Assembly: GCF_001997295.1 (NCBI RefSeq) | Contig: NZ_CP019605.1 | Coordinates: 248,001-312,000, forward strand | Direction of reading: 5' to 3' | DNA: 64,000 nt | Origin: Tessaracoccus flavus | GTDB taxonomy: Bacteria > Actinomycetota > Actinomycetes > Propionibacteriales > Propionibacteriaceae | Shown: in pieces, positions 8,072 to 31,570 of the stretch | Layout: the number at the start of each line of letters is the position of its first letter | How positions within the stretch are numbered: the first letter of the stretch is position 1 | The notes under the pieces: generated by a model | Told to the model about the DNA's origin: nothing | The model's input: only the letters and a program-made list of their open reading frames with translations | The model's database searches: none | Translations under genes and position numbers: made by a program

Positions 8072-12081
<4,010 letters not shown>

Positions 12082-21481: not shown

Positions 21482-21509
21482 GTGGCGGAGGATACGAGAT
21501 TCGAACTCG
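21482..21509. repeat. Left attachment site of tRNA-Ser island (28-bp direct repeat)
   Basis: These 28 bases, beginning GTGGCGGAGGATACGAGATT, are identical to 31482-31509, the 3' end of the intact tRNA-Ser(GGA) gene. They contain the T-arm and acceptor 3' half through CCA but no remaining tRNA, the hallmark of integration into a tRNA 3' end. The two copies start exactly 10,000 bp apart. Confidence 0.9.
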
Positions 21510-21653: not shown

Positions 21654-21701
21654 AATCTGATACGAGATGCGGCGGTGGCGGACGCAGGAGGGGGGTGGGA
21701 C

Positions 21702-23063
21702 ATGGCGGAGGGTCGCCGAGCGTGGGGCAAGGTTCGTCAGCTTCCCTCCGGGCGCTACCAGGCGTCCTACGTCCTCCGCAGCGTTCGCGGCGGCGATCAA
21801 GGCACCCGCTACACAGCGCTCCAGACGTTTGATGCGAAGGGCGATGCCTGGGGCTGGCTCGACCGTGAGCACCGGCTGATCGATCGCGGCGACTGGACTC
21901 CACCGATCGAGCGATTCCGCGAGGCCGAGGAGGAGCGCCAGCGCAAGGAGGTCGCCCGGCAGGCAGCGGCGGCGGTGCCCACCATCGCCGCCTACGGCTC
22001 ACGCTATCTAGAGCGGGCTGACCTCGCTGCGACGTCGCGGGACCGGTACCGGCAACTGTTCAGGTTCTACATCCTTGCCGAGCCCGCGACGATCACGCGG
22101 CGAGGGATGGTGAAGGACAAGCCTGTTGCGAAGCACGGCATTGGCGGTGTGCGCGTCACCGAGTTGACCCGTGCCGACGTGCGCCTGTGGTGGCAGGGTC
22201 TCCCGGTCAGCACGCGCGAGTCCTCGTGCCGGCAGGCGTACGACTTGCTGCGAGCGATCATGAACGCCGCCGTCGAGGCTGAGCTCATCGAGGTGAACCC
22301 TGTCCAGGTCAAGGCGGCCACCCAAGCCCAGGCCTCGCGGGAACGAAATCTGGACCCCCTCCCGATCGACGTGTTGTACGCCGTCGCGGAGCAGATGCCC
22401 GACCCGTGGCGGCTGGGCGTACTCCTGGGGGGCGTGTTGGGTCTTCGTTCCGGTGAGGTCCGGGCCCTGCAGCGCCGCGACTTCAGTCTTAACGTCGAGG
22501 TGCCGACGGTGAAGGTCCATCAGTCGGTGAAGGAGGCGGAGGGAAAGGTCGAGATCGGACCGCTCAAGACCGCCCGCAAGGGCATCGCCTTCCGCACCCT
22601 TCCCATCCCGGCTGCTCTCGTGGGTGACGTGAGGACGCATCTTCGTGAGCACACCCAACTGGGCCGGACGGGGTTGCTCTTCTGGCGCACCAGGGACGGC
22701 GGGCCCGTGAAGTCCGCGGACTGGCTAAGGGCGTTCAAGAAGGCATGCAAGACCGTCGCCGATCACCTGGAGGAGGACGCTGCTCGTCGTCTCGAGCAGT
22801 CGGGGGAGCAGGAGAGCGAGGAGTCGCAGCGCATCCGGGAACTGCTGACCGGTCAAGGGGGCTACGTCTTCCACGGGACGCGCGTGACTGGCCTCACGTG
22901 GGCCTACCGGCTGTCCGGGGGCAATCTCCGGGCCGTCCAAGCGATCGCCGGCCACACCTCGCCGAAGATGGCGTTGCGCTACCAGCGCGCGGAGATGGAC
23001 TACCTTGCCGCAGTGGCGGGCAACGTCTCCTCGATGATCGAGGCCAGCACGCGCAAGCCTTGA
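21702..23063 (+). CDS. int: Tyrosine-type site-specific integrase
   Basis: The 453-residue recombinase has an N-terminal arm-binding region (WGKVRQLPSGRYQASY), a SAM-like core-binding domain and a C-terminal catalytic domain with Arg in GLRSGEVRAL, the HxxR pair as HGTR, GHTS, and the nucleophile Tyr in LRYQRA (codon at 22980-22982). The ATG at 21702 is preferred over the in-frame GTG at 21675 because AGGAGGGG lies 8 bp before it. It sits 190 bp inside the left att copy and reads into the island. It presumably inserted the element at tRNA-Ser; the catalytic set is intact. Confidence 0.92.
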   Translation: MAEGRRAWGKVRQLPSGRYQASYVLRSVRGGDQGTRYTALQTFDAKGDAWGWLDREHRLIDRGDWTPPIERFREAEEERQRKEVARQAAAAVPTIAAYGSRYLERADLAATSRDRYRQLFRFYILAEPATITRRGMVKDKPVAKHGIGGVRVTELTRADVRLWWQGLPVSTRESSCRQAYDLLRAIMNAAVEAELIEVNPVQVKAATQAQASRERNLDPLPIDVLYAVAEQMPDPWRLGVLLGGVLGLRSGEVRALQRRDFSLNVEVPTVKVHQSVKEAEGKVEIGPLKTARKGIAFRTLPIPAALVGDVRTHLREHTQLGRTGLLFWRTRDGGPVKSADWLRAFKKACKTVADHLEEDAARRLEQSGEQESEESQRIRELLTGQGGYVFHGTRVTGLTWAYRLSGGNLRAVQAIAGHTSPKMALRYQRAEMDYLAAVAGNVSSMIEASTRKP

Positions 23064-23420: not shown

Positions 23421-23825
23421 TCAAATCAAACCGGCTTCGTACCTGAGCTGCCACATCCCGGCCAGCAGAGCCGAGCTCTGCCGGGTCGGCAACAGCAATG
23501 CGGCGATGAACCCCGACCATGCGGCCGTCGTCGTCAACACCGGCGGTGCCACAAGAACACCCGGCCCGACCGGCACCACCTTCGCCGGGAACCACAAGTC
23601 GCACTGCACGATCTCCCCGGGCCGGTACTCGGTCCGGTCACTCGGGTCGGGGGGAGCATACAACGGCCGAAAAGCCGCGTCGCGTGTCCGCAGCAGCGAC
23701 GCCAAATGCTGCCAGCCGATCCGCTCGGCGATTACCGACGCCGACATCGTAGGGAACTCCGAAAGCAACCCGCGGAGCTCCGGTTCGAAGCTGTTCGACC
23801 AACGATCCCGACGGGACGCGCTCAC
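23421..23825 (-). pseudogene. IS21-family IstA transposase fragment
   Basis: About 134 residues match the middle of IstA-type DDE transposases: RGLLSEFPTMSASVIAERIGW, then RPLYAPPDP and PGEIVQCDLWFPAKVVP, where the Asp in CDLWF is the first catalytic residue. The N-terminal helix-turn-helix and the later catalytic residues are missing and no IstB is present, so it cannot transpose. Between the integrase and this fragment (23064-23420) I see no gene except the IS-end inverted repeat. Confidence 0.75.
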
Positions 23826-23971: not shown

Positions 23972-25582
23972 TCAGATCCTCCAGTAGATCGGCCCGCCAC
24001 TGGGAAGGAGCCCACATACCTCACGCAGAGAAGGATGAAATACGTATCTATCAAGTCCTCTGGGCAACCGGAGGCGGCCGAGTCGATCCATTGTGAAGAA
24101 ATGGGCTAAGCCATCGTCCTCCTCTTCGACACCCAGTAGTCCTGCCTGCCATAGGACAGACGCGAGGTCCGGAGCGCCGAATAGTGCCCGCGCCTCCGCT
24201 TGGAGTTCAAGTATCTGGGGCCATCCCACTCGAAGATAGACACAACGTTGGATCAACTGCGTGACTTGCTCAAGCCGGCTGTCCTTATACTCGGCGACGC
24301 CCAAGTAGCTATCTACGAAATGATACTTACTCGCCTCCGTGGGGACCTCATCAGCAACCACATGGTTTGCCACAACAGTCAACTGCGTCTTGCCGCTGAT
24401 GAGCGCGACGTCCGACACAACTTGACGAAGGTGCTCGTTGTCGAGCGTTTCACCCTGCGCCCACAACTCGAGAAGCCTTTGAGCAAGCAAGTTTCCGAAC
24501 GAAACCACATCGCGTGGAAGGCATTGTGCGTGGCGCAGAATGTATTCATAGAGAGGTTCGCGTGTATCGTACGAGTTCTTGACGGTAGAGAAGCCGACCC
24601 AGTCACTCAGCGATTCGGGTCGAGTCGTCCCGCCCCAGAGTTCAGCAGGCAGTCGACGTGTCTTTGCGTCTAGGAGCGCTTTGGCGGCGGTGTAGCCCCA
24701 CTCGAGAATGGATACATGCGGATCACCGACGTATCTCGATGCGTGCTCGCTTTGAAAAATCGAATGGAATACTGAATCCCGAATGGAGATCACTACGTGA
24801 AGTCTCGATCCCAGTGAGGGGTGCCTCAACATGCGCATCGTTTCGTAAAAGAGCCCCTTTTGGCACCGAAGCCAGTATGCTGGCGCCCGCGCGTACTCCT
24901 CATCGATCGCGTCGATGATAAAGTAAAGTGGAGGTGCATCCCGCAGGTGCTGCGCGACCCTTGTCTCGAGATCGTCCCACAGTGGATTGTTGACCATTGC
25001 CAACAACGACTGGGGCGAGTGTGCGCCGTCGATTAGTTGTTTCAGTGTCGTGAAGGGGCTTCGCTCGGCTTTGGCCCTCCGAATCAAATGACCGAAATCA
25101 GTGTTGAGGCTTTCGCGCTCCTCGGTAGTGAGATAGGGACGGTACTTCTTGGAAAACAGAAGATAAGTTGCTGCCGCTACCAGGATTGCGCGGCCCCAGC
25201 AAAGCTGCCAAGTCTCTGTAAGTAGCCCTTCGGGAAACCAGTGCGCGACTCTTAGAACGTGATCGGTGGTTATCAGAGTCGTGGTTGGTGCCTCAGCGAC
25301 CACTACGGACTGATTCGCCTCAAGATCAGCCTGGAAGCGCCGAAGATATATCGTCTTCCCCGACCCTTTGCGGCCGACAACCACACGCACGCGTTGCGCA
25401 TCTCGACCAAAGAACGCCGATGCTCGCAACTCCTCAACGTCGACGAAGTCTCGCAAATCAGCCCGACCGCCGTCCGGATCCCCGAAGGCTCCGGGCTCCC
25501 CCTGATGTCGTGCGATGAAAGCACGGGCGTTGCGCTCACGCTCGCGCGGATCCCATGCGCGAAAGTCATCTATGGCGGACAC
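23972..25582 (-). CDS. P-loop NTPase of NTPase-FRG-NTPase operon (distal)
   Basis: The 536-residue protein has Walker A GRKGSGKT (70-77) and a Walker B-like strand LYFIIDAIDEEY (219-230). The N-terminus and VVGRKGSGKT context resemble P-loop ATPases of the Sll1717 type; the remaining 300 residues are helical and unrecognised. No signal peptide or membrane segment is evident apart from one hydrophobic stretch near 131-143. The GTG start overlaps the stop of the FRG gene by one base (TAGTG), so the two are coupled. GC is clearly below that of flanking host genes, indicating acquisition. The role is unknown; its operon and island setting suggest a sensor or motor in defence. Confidence 0.7.
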   Translation of the reverse strand: MSAIDDFRAWDPRERERNARAFIARHQGEPGAFGDPDGGRADLRDFVDVEELRASAFFGRDAQRVRVVVGRKGSGKTIYLRRFQADLEANQSVVVAEAPTTTLITTDHVLRVAHWFPEGLLTETWQLCWGRAILVAAATYLLFSKKYRPYLTTEERESLNTDFGHLIRRAKAERSPFTTLKQLIDGAHSPQSLLAMVNNPLWDDLETRVAQHLRDAPPLYFIIDAIDEEYARAPAYWLRCQKGLFYETMRMLRHPSLGSRLHVVISIRDSVFHSIFQSEHASRYVGDPHVSILEWGYTAAKALLDAKTRRLPAELWGGTTRPESLSDWVGFSTVKNSYDTREPLYEYILRHAQCLPRDVVSFGNLLAQRLLELWAQGETLDNEHLRQVVSDVALISGKTQLTVVANHVVADEVPTEASKYHFVDSYLGVAEYKDSRLEQVTQLIQRCVYLRVGWPQILELQAEARALFGAPDLASVLWQAGLLGVEEEDDGLAHFFTMDRLGRLRLPRGLDRYVFHPSLREVCGLLPSGGPIYWRI

Positions 25583-26298
25583 TATATCAATCCGTGAATC
25601 GCTTGGCTGCGCACCTCGCGTAAAATGCCCGCCCGATCGGGGAACAGTTTGCGGTCAGATATCATCATTGTATGAAGATCGCGCAGGGCAGCTGGACGAA
25701 CCGTAGGAGATATTGTGTATGCCCTGAGCGCATCACTCTCCCCCATGTCGCGAAGTTGTTGTATGAAGCAAGTTCCAAGACGCCCCACAACAAAGACACC
25801 CCGCTGAGCGCCGAGTCTCTGGTTCCACGGACCGGCCGGCGGTGCAACCACGGAGACATCCCCTCCACGATTCAGGAATGGACGAGAGGCGTCGAGTCGA
25901 TAAACCACGCAGTTGCGGTCCTCGTAATCAGCGCCTGGCGAGAGTGCTGTGAGTGCAAAGTACATCGCCACCATCGGACTCCGAGTCCAGTCGAGGAGGG
26001 CAGTCGGCAGGCCCCAATGCTGCCCCAATGCCCATAGGTCTGCGTCGGTCAGCTCTGCGGCGTCGTCTCCTAGCTCAACCGAGTACTCGCGGTAGAGGCT
26101 TTGAAGACGTGTTGCGAGCGCGGTCCGGTCACGGACAAAGTTCTCATCCGCAAAGCGATCCAAACTGGCTACCATGCACCATGCGGCATTACCAACTCCG
26201 CGCCAGACAAATTGGTCATCGTGGCTCTCGAAGAGGAAGTCGCGCATCTCCGGCCACGTTTCAAAGTGCGTGCCGTCACAATCAGCTGCTGAACTCAA
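25582..26298 (-). CDS. FRG-domain protein
   Basis: The 238-residue protein is an almost pure FRG domain: FVWRG at 30-34 and the diagnostic block LGQHWGLPTALLDWTRSPMV at 91-110, followed by AMYFA. FRG domains (named for Phe-Arg-Gly) are found in bacterial and phage-related proteins; their biochemical activity is not established. The TTG start at 26298 lies 17 bp inside the upstream NTPase gene, and its stop overlaps the next start, giving a tightly coupled three-gene unit. With two NTPases either side it is the likely effector, but this is inference. Confidence 0.8.
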   Translation of the reverse strand: MSSAADCDGTHFETWPEMRDFLFESHDDQFVWRGVGNAAWCMVASLDRFADENFVRDRTALATRLQSLYREYSVELGDDAAELTDADLWALGQHWGLPTALLDWTRSPMVAMYFALTALSPGADYEDRNCVVYRLDASRPFLNRGGDVSVVAPPAGPWNQRLGAQRGVFVVGRLGTCFIQQLRDMGESDALRAYTISPTVRPAALRDLHTMMISDRKLFPDRAGILREVRSQAIHGLI

Positions 26299-27709
26299 TT
26301 GTTACACCTCTCGGGCTAGGAGCAAGATTGCACCTGTCTAACAAGATTGGGTGAAGCATCAAATCCTTAACGTGCGTGCCTAGACGACTGTCGACTCTCC
26401 TGGAGACGGAGAAACGCGAATTGTGATCGTCAAACTGTGCCAATATTCGGTGCAGCCATAGGCAATCGGTTAAGTGTGGTGCCGTTGCTTCTTCCCAGTT
26501 CGTGACAAGAGCTTGCAGTTGAGTCCAATCGAACCGCTCGTTGCTAATCCGTTCAAACTCAATGATCAAACGCTCCTTCAGGGAGATACCGGAGGGCTCA
26601 CCGCCCGCTGACAGTCGGCTGCCCGTCAAGCTTCTAGCGCCTAGTGCGCGCATGTCGCTCACTAGCTGTTGCAAAGTGAGGTCGGCAAGCCTCTCTGCGT
26701 AATCGGCCACCGCAGCCTTGAGTTGATCCTCGGGTACGCGGTGAGCAGCAGTTAGGCGCGCGATGACGACACGGACAATGGACTCAATCGCTCGCGGCGT
26801 CAGTGTGGTATGTCGTAGGAGATATTCGGCAACGTCCTCGTCCACCCCTCTCTCTGCGACGTGTACTGTGGGATTGTCTGCTAATTCGGGGAGCGAGCAA
26901 CCACCATGTCTCGTGATTTCCTTCTCCAGGAGCTGACGAATGGCGGATTTGGTCCATTTGAGATCAATGAAACAGCGATCATTCGTGAGGTTATGACCGG
27001 TCATACGCCATAGATAGTGATTCGTGGACGGACGCACTGCTGCATGGATACGCAAACGGTCGGGCTGGGCGATTGGCGCCCGTGCCAGTTGTGACAAATG
27101 TAGAGCAAGGCCAGCTTGCGTTTCCGCCATTATTGACGGATCGTTGTCGAAGTATTCATCCAGATGGTCTATCTCCAGCAGAAGAGGCGGAAACCGTGCG
27201 GCGGGACAGGCTCGGACTATCTCTTCGATCTCAGTCCAACGCGCCTCATTAAACCGTGCGGCCGGCTTCTGTGTTGCCGGGGAGTCGGCAAGGATCGTCA
27301 CGACGGTGTTTGGATGCTTCGTCGTCGCGAGTCCGAAGAGTGCTTTGGGGAGATGCCGCGCTGCGCCCCATTCGATCCGTGCCGCGTAGTCAGGTGGCAG
27401 TTCGGTCCGGTGTTCGTAGAGGTGCGTGAAGATCGATGTGACCAAGACAACGCGCCACACGCTGGCCCAATGCGTGATGTCTACGAGTGGCGTACTCAGC
27501 CGGCGCCACACGGGGGTCGTGGGCGGCATCGGAGCCGGCGGGACTGAGAAGGGAGTCTCTTCCAAGAGGCGATCTAGCACCTCTTGGAGGAGCCGGGTCT
27601 TGCCGGACCCGATTGCGCCAGAGATGACCAGGACGGGTTGCTCGAGGGCTTGTTCGACGACACCTTCGGCAGCGGCGTTTGGCTCAACCCATTGTTGTCG
27701 CACGTGCAT
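26282..27709 (-). CDS. P-loop NTPase of NTPase-FRG-NTPase operon (proximal)
   Basis: The 475-residue protein has Walker A GAIGSGKT (31-38) close to its N-terminus, and Walker B LLLEIDHLDEYF (about 177-188). That DxxDExx pattern also occurs in the third gene of the operon. The part after residue 240 is helical with no assigned family, so it resembles STAND-like or AAA+-like signalling NTPases. The ATG at 27709 is preferred because GGGGGAG lies 8 bp before it; an in-frame ATG at 27739 has no ribosome site. It is the first gene of the operon and has lower GC than host genes. Function is unknown. Confidence 0.7.
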   Translation of the reverse strand: MHVRQQWVEPNAAAEGVVEQALEQPVLVISGAIGSGKTRLLQEVLDRLLEETPFSVPPAPMPPTTPVWRRLSTPLVDITHWASVWRVVLVTSIFTHLYEHRTELPPDYAARIEWGAARHLPKALFGLATTKHPNTVVTILADSPATQKPAARFNEARWTEIEEIVRACPAARFPPLLLEIDHLDEYFDNDPSIMAETQAGLALHLSQLARAPIAQPDRLRIHAAVRPSTNHYLWRMTGHNLTNDRCFIDLKWTKSAIRQLLEKEITRHGGCSLPELADNPTVHVAERGVDEDVAEYLLRHTTLTPRAIESIVRVVIARLTAAHRVPEDQLKAAVADYAERLADLTLQQLVSDMRALGARSLTGSRLSAGGEPSGISLKERLIIEFERISNERFDWTQLQALVTNWEEATAPHLTDCLWLHRILAQFDDHNSRFSVSRRVDSRLGTHVKDLMLHPILLDRCNLAPSPRGVTIEFSS

Positions 27710-27744
27710 GCAGTTGTCTCCCCCGTCAGTACTTCCCATGATAG

Positions 27745-27989: not shown

Positions 27990-28460
27990 ATTCGTTCGCC
28001 GATTCAGCTGCAGATGGTGTCGCCCTTGCAGGTGAAGGCACTGCTGGACGGGTGTTCCAGGGCTTGTCTGCGGCTCTTCTGGGCTTGTTGTAGCGCACGT
28101 TGGGCTTTGCGGAGGAGGTGATCGGCTTCGTTCGCGGCGGTGAAGGCCAGGTCTGCCAGCTCGAGGTTCTTGCGATGACCACGGCCAGTGCTACGTCTTG
28201 GCCGGCGGCGTTGCGGGTCCCGGTGTTGGGCGTTCAGGTCGCCTGCCCGTTTGCCGGCAGCCGGCGATCGGTCCCGGAGCTTGGTGCGGACCGCGCCACT
28301 GGCGTCCTGAATCCGTCGTTTTGGTCGCAAACGCCGGATCCGTTTCGCCAACAGCCCGGAATCGGTGGGATGAGGCCACGTTCGCACCGACAACGGTGGT
28401 GTCGACCCGGATCCGGCTGCAGCGCAGCACCTCGTAGGTTGCCGCGAGCAGCGCCTGGTT
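27990..28460 (-). pseudogene. Degenerate DDE transposase remnant
   Basis: On the minus strand EVLRCSRIRVDTTVVGANVA and, in a shifted frame, HPTDSGLLAKRIRRL followed by GAVRTKLRDRS form the recognisable middle of an IS transposase in which RxDTTVV carries the first catalytic Asp. The frames are separated by a +1 shift near 28380 and both ends are missing. The exact IS family is uncertain. The remainder of 27763-28674 contains nothing else that I can support. Confidence 0.65.
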
Positions 28461-30048: not shown

Positions 30049-30927
30049 ATGACCCACCAAGGACTGGCCACCAAAGCAGTGGGAGCCATCATGGCCGCTG
30101 CACTGATCGGTGGCTGCACTGCCGCGCCCACCAACAGCCCGACCCCGGTCCTCGCGCCCATCACGCGCCGCGACCCCGGCCTTGACGACGCCGGCCAACC
30201 GTTGCGCGACGACCAGGGCCGCCTCCTGCACCGGACCCACGTGGTTACGACCAAACCCGTCACGGTGTTCGACATCCGGCAAACCGACGGACCCACGTTG
30301 CCCGACCCCAAGATCGGCGACGGCGCCCTCCTCACCGGAGAAGCACCTGCAGGACTGTGGGACCGACTCCAAGGTCTCCTTGAGGAGAGAGGCTTCGACG
30401 TCCGTCGCGGAGCGGACCTCGGTGGCGCGAACGGCGTCACCGACTTTACCCAGCGGCTGGTGACGATCCGCGACGACGTCGACGACGCCCAGGCCGTCAA
30501 GACCCCCGCCCACGAAGCCGGGCACGTGCTCCTTCACCAGGACCAGGGCAGCCGCGACTGCCGCGGGATAGTCGAAGTCGAAGCCGAGTCCGTCGCGTAC
30601 ATGGTCACGAGCGCACACGGCCTCGACTCCAGCCAGTACACCTTCAACTACGTCGCCGGCTGGGCCCTCAACGCGGTGACCGAGCAGCGCGACCTCGCCG
30701 AGATCCTCCGCAGCACAGGCCAGCGAGTCATTGGCGCGGCCGCCCTCATCCTCCAAGCCACGCAGCCGGCGCCTACTATCACCGACGGAGCGCTCGACGC
30801 CCTGGAGTCGGAGGTTCGAACCCAGGTCGATCCGACCAGATGGGAAGTCGCGCCTGCCGTCGCCGAGCCACCCCCGCAGGTGTCACCTCCAAGTCGCGCC
30901 GTCCCAGCGCCCGCCTTGTCTCTCTGA
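30049..30927 (+). CDS. ArdC-type zincin metallopeptidase with lipoprotein signal
   Basis: The 292-residue protein contains the C-terminal zincin domain found in actinobacterial ArdC-like element proteins: VFDIRQTDGP, ANGVTDFTQRLVTIRDDVDD, the zinc motif HEAGH (155-159) and a downstream VEVEAES (glutamates near 178-180). ArdC proteins normally carry an N-terminal ssDNA-binding domain (DUF1738). Here that domain is absent and the N-terminus instead reads as a lipoprotein signal (KAVGAIMAAALIGGC, Cys23) with a Thr/Pro linker. The ATG follows GAAGGAGG. If the signal works, this peptidase acts outside the membrane, which would be unusual. The C-terminus is Pro-rich. Confidence 0.75.
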   Translation: MTHQGLATKAVGAIMAAALIGGCTAAPTNSPTPVLAPITRRDPGLDDAGQPLRDDQGRLLHRTHVVTTKPVTVFDIRQTDGPTLPDPKIGDGALLTGEAPAGLWDRLQGLLEERGFDVRRGADLGGANGVTDFTQRLVTIRDDVDDAQAVKTPAHEAGHVLLHQDQGSRDCRGIVEVEAESVAYMVTSAHGLDSSQYTFNYVAGWALNAVTEQRDLAEILRSTGQRVIGAAALILQATQPAPTITDGALDALESEVRTQVDPTRWEVAPAVAEPPPQVSPPSRAVPAPALSL

Positions 30928-30994
30928 CGAGTCGCCAATCCGGCGGTCACGCACCAACCCGACCTTCCATCCCGACACCGAGAGGAAACTGGCC

Positions 30995-31252
30995 ATGTCG
31001 CTCCCCATCTCGCACACTTGGGGTCAACCCGTGCCCGAATGGCTGTCATTGCAGCAAGCGGCCGCCGTGTACGGCGTGAGTGTCGACACGCTGCGGCGAC
31101 GCGTCGCCTCAGGGAAGCTTCGGGCGTCAAGGTTCGGCGTGAGGCTCACCCGAGTCCGCGTCGAGGATCTCGACAGGCTGTTCCGGCCCATCCCCACGGG
31201 CGATGACCTCACTCAACGACGGGCACGTGCGCGCAATCAGCGCCCCTGGTAA
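30995..31252 (+). CDS. Excisionase-like helix-turn-helix protein
   Basis: The 85-residue protein carries a MerR-like/HTH_17 DNA-binding domain: WLSLQQAAAVYGVSVDTLRR, RVASGKLRASRFG, then VRVEDLDRLF. Proteins of this size beside tRNA att sites usually act as recombination directionality factors. The ATG at 30995 follows GAGAGGAAAC. It is 67 bp after the metallopeptidase gene and about 230 bp from the right att site, so it is well placed to bind att. Confidence 0.8.
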   Translation: MSLPISHTWGQPVPEWLSLQQAAAVYGVSVDTLRRRVASGKLRASRFGVRLTRVRVEDLDRLFRPIPTGDDLTQRRARARNQRPW

Positions 31253-31481: not shown

Positions 31482-31509
31482 GTGGCGGAGGATACGAGAT
31501 TCGAACTCG
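31482..31509. repeat. Right attachment site within tRNA-Ser
   Basis: The same 28 bases as 21482-21509, here forming the 3' end of the complete tRNA-Ser. Integration at this site leaves the tRNA intact on the right and a fragment on the left. Confidence 0.9.
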
Positions 31510-31570
31510 TGAGGGCGTGAACCCAACCCGCTTTCCAAGCGAGCGCCATAGGCCTCTAGGCGAATCCTCC
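31483..31570 (-). tRNA. tRNA-Ser(GGA)
   Basis: The 88-nt gene on the minus strand has acceptor GGAGGAT pairing with ATCCTCC, anticodon stem CTCGC/GCGGG with loop TTGGAAA (anticodon GGA), a long class II variable arm, T-loop GTTCGAATC, and an encoded CCA. It is intact and is the integration target of the island. Confidence 0.95.

Follow-up and report, generated by a model that had tools for sequence, protein, structure and literature searches.

What is the function of two large P-loop NTPases and a compact FRG-domain protein which are encoded by three overlapping genes on a mobile island of Tessaracoccus flavus? The genes lie on the minus strand of a 64,000-nucleotide stretch of contig NZ_CP019605.1 (positions 248,001 to 312,000; hereafter "the window", whose own numbering is used throughout), the genome being a single contig of 3.22 Mb. 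An earlier reading made from the sequence alone had considered them a candidate defence system. The follow-up described here leads us to favour, with a fair margin of doubt, an operon directed against phages or other mobile elements in which the NTPases N1 and N2 would serve as sensor and switch gating the FRG protein F, a predicted NAD+-using effector of the ADP-ribosyltransferase (ART) superfamily.

An FRG protein between two related NTPases

N1 (26282-27739, minus strand, 485 aa), F (25582-26298, minus strand, 238 aa, TTG start) and N2 (23972-25582, minus strand, 536 aa, GTG start) are intact open reading frames, the overlap amounting to 17 bp between N1 and F and to 1 bp between F and N2, in agreement with the layout given by the sequence-only reading. 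An in-frame ATG 30 nt downstream of the annotated N1 start and situated behind GGGGGAGA may be the better N1 start. A scan for promoters and terminators yielded matches no more numerous than in shuffled sequences, and an Rfam scan yielded none.

F matches the FRG profile PF08867 with 67 bits (E 2.9e-18), well above the cut-off of 25, and residues 7-232 match the PADLOC candidate PDC-S15 (PDLC04937) with an E-value of 3.7e-50; the FRG protein of a related locus (L032, recovered a second time as L045) reaches 1.6e-62 against the same candidate. The predicted structure of F is confident (predicted local distance difference test, pLDDT, 91.7; predicted template modelling score, pTM, 0.89), and its structural neighbours are mostly ARTs, including the toxin-antitoxin ART toxins ParT and DarT; the first row of the Foldseek output is a chain of an Xre-RES complex. 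For neither the FRG nor the N2 alignment was a sequence relative found among solved structures. The catalytic triad of ARTs consists of Arg or His, Ser or Tyr, and Glu. Across all 26 FRG sequences aligned, R33, the motif [ST]105-x-S107 and Q165 are invariant and there is no invariant Glu; judged from the alignment ends, R33 comes to lie opposite residue 7 of the cholera A1 chain, provided that the alignment is gap-free. On the strength of the model, F is probably an ART-superfamily enzyme and thus a member of an NAD-using family. The view of the sequence-only reading that FRG domains are without established activity cannot be upheld as it stood, since PADLOC lists FRG proteins as PDC-S15 and a 2022 paper (PMC9503650) assigns Frg to the ART superfamily, regards it as a possible NADase and proposes it as an antiviral effector. 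The paper lists Frg among characterised enzymes in one place and describes it as a potential NADase in another.

The two NTPases are homologous to each other (E 2.7e-12, 27% identity). Their Walker A blocks, SGAIGSGKT and VGRKGSGKT, and their Walker B blocks, EIDHLDEY and IIDAIDEEY, bear out the earlier description of two P-loop proteins with similar Walker B motifs. N2 belongs to the Sll1717 family of P-loop ATPases (NF047389, 84.9 bits, cut-off 75), as do its counterparts at L046, L053 and L055, which likewise exceed the cut-off; N1, despite its homology to N2, remains below it (47.7 bits) and is recognised by AAA_16 (33.8 bits, cut-off 32.6). N2 in turn stays below the Pfam cut-offs for NACHT and AAA_16. 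Its predicted structure, modelled for the N2 of the window (pLDDT 80.3, pTM 0.81), is AAA+/STAND-like: in the VIA rows, SSO1545, CED-4 and the nucleotide-binding leucine-rich repeat receptors (NLRs) tie with ORC, Cdc6 and TnsC. STAND NTPases are defined by a Walker A motif, a Walker B motif of the form hhhhDxxDE and a sensor-1 Arg. All three are present in each of the 18 N2-type sequences, with DD in place of DE at L044. Among 20 NTPases placed in one tree, the two N1 proteins (that of the window and that of G041, described below) share a clade and have long branches. Walker A remains valid in both, and the DxxD part of Walker B is present, followed in G041 by N instead of E; the IRD block of sensor 1 lacks its D in both, whereas 17 of the 18 N2-type proteins have it. 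These features fit a division of labour in which N2 would be the motor and N1 a fast-evolving, diverging partner.

Conserved unit and exchange of partners

The entire trio recurs in the same order in a second species from a different genus (G041, locus L010), its proteins sharing 27% (N1), 45% (F) and 49% (N2) identity with those of the window. Since the arrangement has been kept in a second genus, it is not due to chance. The concern that the trio might be confined to one strain is thus removed, although these two species are the only ones in which it was found complete. Outside them, a search of 394 genomes for N1 gave three matches, all weak and partial, while N2 carriers amount to 1 of 39 genomes in the window's genus, 1 of 20 in that of G041, 5 of 396 in the phylum and 1 of 394 in the class (the window's own genome included). 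All carrier counts are lower bounds because only a small number of candidates was scored for each genome and each collection scan relied on two short patterns. A possible fourth gene at L010 (11382-12215), 14 bp after N2, encodes 277 aa with a TIG domain and, close to the N-terminus, a hydrophobic segment; no counterpart has been established in the window.

Six N2 sequences were used to scan a collection of species-level genomes, which delivered 13 loci, among them L045, which is L032 (genome G616) again. Altogether 18 N2-type loci were examined, each counted once. An FRG gene is adjacent in seven of them (the window, L010, L044, L045, L046, L053 and L055). Two of the seven do not come from a blind search, namely the window itself and L010, which was reached via F; without them, 5 of the 16 loci recovered with N2 alone have FRG adjacent, and this is the unbiased figure. 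The FRG-adjacent loci belong to two phyla. At all five blind loci the NTPase gene is followed by the FRG gene, the distance between them being -4 to 215 bp, so that the conserved unit is NTPase then FRG. The window fits this unit as N1-F, supplemented by one more NTPase, N2.

The remaining N2-type loci reveal an exchange of the partner. Five of the 18 encode a fusion of the NTPase with a protein kinase and two a fusion with a nucleotide cyclase (L054 and L049, the latter cut by a contig end); at L029, L030 and L031 no effector was recognised among the neighbours scanned, and one further locus, L056, is cut by the contig end. The kinase domains are C-terminal Ser/Thr kinases (PF00069; L047 7884-10463, L048 4705-7680, L050 7968-10409, L051 1278-3875, L052 348-2957), occur in Trebonia and related actinobacterial genomes, and show DFN instead of the DFG motif; the cyclases are of class III (PF00211; L049 1590-3872, L054 5293-7512). 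At L029, a 333-aa protein with a hydrophobic N-terminus (10443-11444), encoded 34 bp upstream of the NTPase, may be another output; it has no match in Pfam, PADLOC or NCBIfam. Judged by these domain assignments, the N2-type NTPase would be a switch with exchangeable outputs, namely FRG, kinase and cyclase.

Two simpler accounts of the FRG linkage were considered and rejected. Chance neighbourhood is incompatible with 5 of 16 loci being FRG-adjacent in searches which were blind to FRG, given that FRG detectable with F is sparse: 147 genomes of the family gave 9 matches, corresponding to 8 genomes with FRG, and the close form occurs only in the window and G041. Conversely, FRG genes at large are not always accompanied by the NTPase. 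A search of the available flanks with the N2 profile found none at any of 33 FRG loci on IMG/VR viral contigs (L057-L089), none at 8 plasmid FRG loci (of 46 matched records) and none at 7 other FRG loci of the family. Nine of 396 phylum genomes contain FRG at E <= 1e-10. Two of them (the window's and G616) exceed 300 bits and both carry it beside N2; the other seven score below 80 bits and lie outside the five N2 genomes, assuming that the same genome set underlies both searches. The NTPase link, as far as sequence comparison tells, is a property of one FRG subtype. FRG genes commonly standing alone, which the sequence-only reading had named as refuting its proposal, are indeed the rule among FRG genes at large, and this condition therefore applies in part. 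An exception to the subtype link is the FRG gene of a Rhizobium jaguaris plasmid (L037, 220 bits), which comes close to this subtype yet has no N2; SIR2 and ABC-three-component genes occur in the same plasmid region (L037/L090).

Island, defence neighbours and proposed function

The trio is part of an island bounded by an exact 28-bp direct repeat (att) whose copies (21482-21509 and 31482-31509) are spaced by 10,000 bp. The second copy lies at the 3' end of a tRNA-Ser(GGA) gene (31483-31570, minus strand), the probable integration target. A phage-type integrase gene (21675-23063, plus strand, 462 aa; PF00589 28.4 bits, cut-off 27.1) adjoins the first copy, and an open reading frame with an excisionase-type DNA-binding domain in residues 104-149 (30731-31252, plus strand; TIGR01764 34.2 bits, cut-off 28.8) adjoins the other. 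Insertion sequence (IS) remnants, an IS21-family transposase downstream of the trio (23421-23825, minus strand; NF033546, 3.5e-9) and an ISNCY-family transposase upstream of it (28004-28393, minus strand; NF033593, 2.7e-6), are both partial and below cut-off. The three 1-kb bins between 24001 and 27000 have a G+C content of 55.5-57.9%, every other bin of the window one of at least 61%. The tRNA island with integrase and IS remnants as well as the low G+C content compared to the host genes had been noted from the sequence and are confirmed. An empty integration site was not found on comparison of 12 L,D-transpeptidase loci (the window and 11 relatives); in five relatives tRNA-Ser lies beside an L,D-transpeptidase gene, but GlpA was not found within their flanks. 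Between the trio and the tRNA gene, a further island gene (30049-30927) shows an IrrE-like Peptidase_M78 match below the Pfam cut-off.

The partial transposases on either side could mark the trio as the relic of a decaying, functionless operon. Since the three frames are unbroken, neither the Walker motifs nor the invariant residues of FRG have been lost, and the trio is likewise intact in a second genus, we regard this as very improbable.

Evidence for a role in conflict comes from related pairs elsewhere. Three loci, which we take to be from Bacillota, provide it: at L053 the NTPase+FRG unit adjoins a SIR2 gene, at L055 it adjoins the genes of a type II restriction enzyme with the methylase belonging to it and of an AlbA_2 protein, and at L056 a bSEFIR gene precedes the NTPase. 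The loci from Actinomycetota showed no recognisable known defence gene, PADLOC having covered few neighbours there (3 island proteins in the window, 1 at L044, 1+1 at L010 and 2 at L029). Because related pairs adjoin phage-defence genes, the operon is probably an antiviral system.

The overlapping genes on an integrative element, together with the toxin-antitoxin proteins among the structural neighbours of F and the Xre-RES chain heading the Foldseek output, would also suit a toxin-antitoxin or stabilisation module in which F, an NAD+-consuming toxin restrained by N1 and N2, retains the 10-kb element without any phage sensing. We consider this unlikely, as both partners are large STAND-like NTPases and not small antitoxins, kinases and cyclases occur as outputs of the same NTPase, and the FRG-paired relatives in Bacillota adjoin restriction and SIR2 genes. 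Kinases and cyclases being signalling domains, and three loci lacking a recognised effector beside N2 among the neighbours scanned, the NTPase might instead be an NTP-dependent regulator of stress responses or development which steers FRG, kinase or cyclase upon a cellular cue, with no part in conflict. The patchy occurrence (1 of 39 genomes in the genus, 1 of 394 in the class), the low G+C content, the island location and the defence neighbours in Bacillota render this quite unlikely.

The preferred reading, an operon of anti-phage or anti-mobile-element function, could operate as follows. N1 and N2, paralogous STAND-like NTPases, would constitute sensor and switch, probably as a hetero-oligomer. 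In the resting state they would keep F inactive or lack the assembly which activates it. A signal of infection, perhaps read by N1, would switch N2 by ATP exchange or hydrolysis and alter the assembly, whereupon F, encoded in the same operon and probably bound to N1/N2, would be released or ordered by the NTPases. Active F would then use NAD+, either as an NADase or by ADP-ribosylation of a target, and thus halt growth of the infected cell. While the gene layout, the homology of N1 and N2, the structural models, the recurrence of NTPase+FRG in two phyla and the partner exchange are results of computation, we infer the physical complex, the sensing of the trigger, the NAD+ chemistry and the anti-phage protection. 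The sequence-only reading had likewise cast the NTPases as sensing or assembling components and the FRG protein as effector, which is consistent with the N2 model, the ART-like F, the exchange of outputs and the Bacillota neighbours; the conserved unit, however, is NTPase+FRG and not the trio.

FRG proteins occur widely, and for most of them the annotation goes no further than the name of the domain. Here, an FRG effector has definite NTPase partners, and its chemistry and trigger therefore become testable. An NTPase whose output can be FRG, kinase or cyclase would illustrate the rewiring of NTPase switches in bacteria; the same question arises for the immune receptors of plants and animals.

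Relation to known systems

RADAR consists of the adenosine deaminase RdrB next to the RdrA ATPase; the trio differs from it in effector and NTPase family, and no deaminase is present among its proteins. Closest by F is PDC-S15, which we take from the "S" in its name to be a single-gene candidate. It comprises FRG proteins but no NTPase, and N1 and N2 do not find a strong match in PADLOC-DB 2.0.0 (N2, no family; N1, best E 0.004; five further N2 and one further N1, best E 0.0084). A match to an already named system, one of the refuting conditions set by the sequence-only reading, thus applies in part, since F matches a listed defence candidate. NF047389 covers N2 but not N1, is a name without function and is silent on FRG. 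Identity with the anti-phage protein DS-41 (NF053860) was rejected, scores being 11-21 bits with a cut-off of 370. The Frg clade of the ART superfamily shares with F the FRG domain and the ART neighbours of its model, and the accessible parts of PMC9503650 do not mention an operon of Frg with an Sll1717-type NTPase. The term "FRG" is absent from the main texts of PMC13092281, PMC7159879, PMC8195603, PMC12839542 and PMC10853773, and the literature titles searched contain no description of an NTPase+FRG pair, supplements and Burroughs and Aravind 2020, which could describe such pairs, lying outside that search.

The STAND immune receptors, Avs and the bacterial NLR-like proteins, resemble the present system in the STAND-like NTPase and in exchangeable outputs. 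In contrast to them, FRG is here a separate polypeptide and no long sensor-repeat domain is seen; nor is there a strong match to any Avs model (Avs4, 9.3 bits for N1, cut-off 1500). By analogy, and tentatively, the loci might represent a new family of bacterial immune receptors, in which a STAND-like NTPase is linked to varying outputs (FRG/ART as a separate enzyme, kinase or cyclase by fusion) and whose most elaborate form would combine the conserved motor N2 with a fast-evolving, possibly pathogen-sensing N1 to gate an ART effector, reminiscent of the helper-sensor pairs of plant NLRs. While ART effector and STAND-like NTPase are parts of known kinds, their combination and the exchange of outputs appear to be new.
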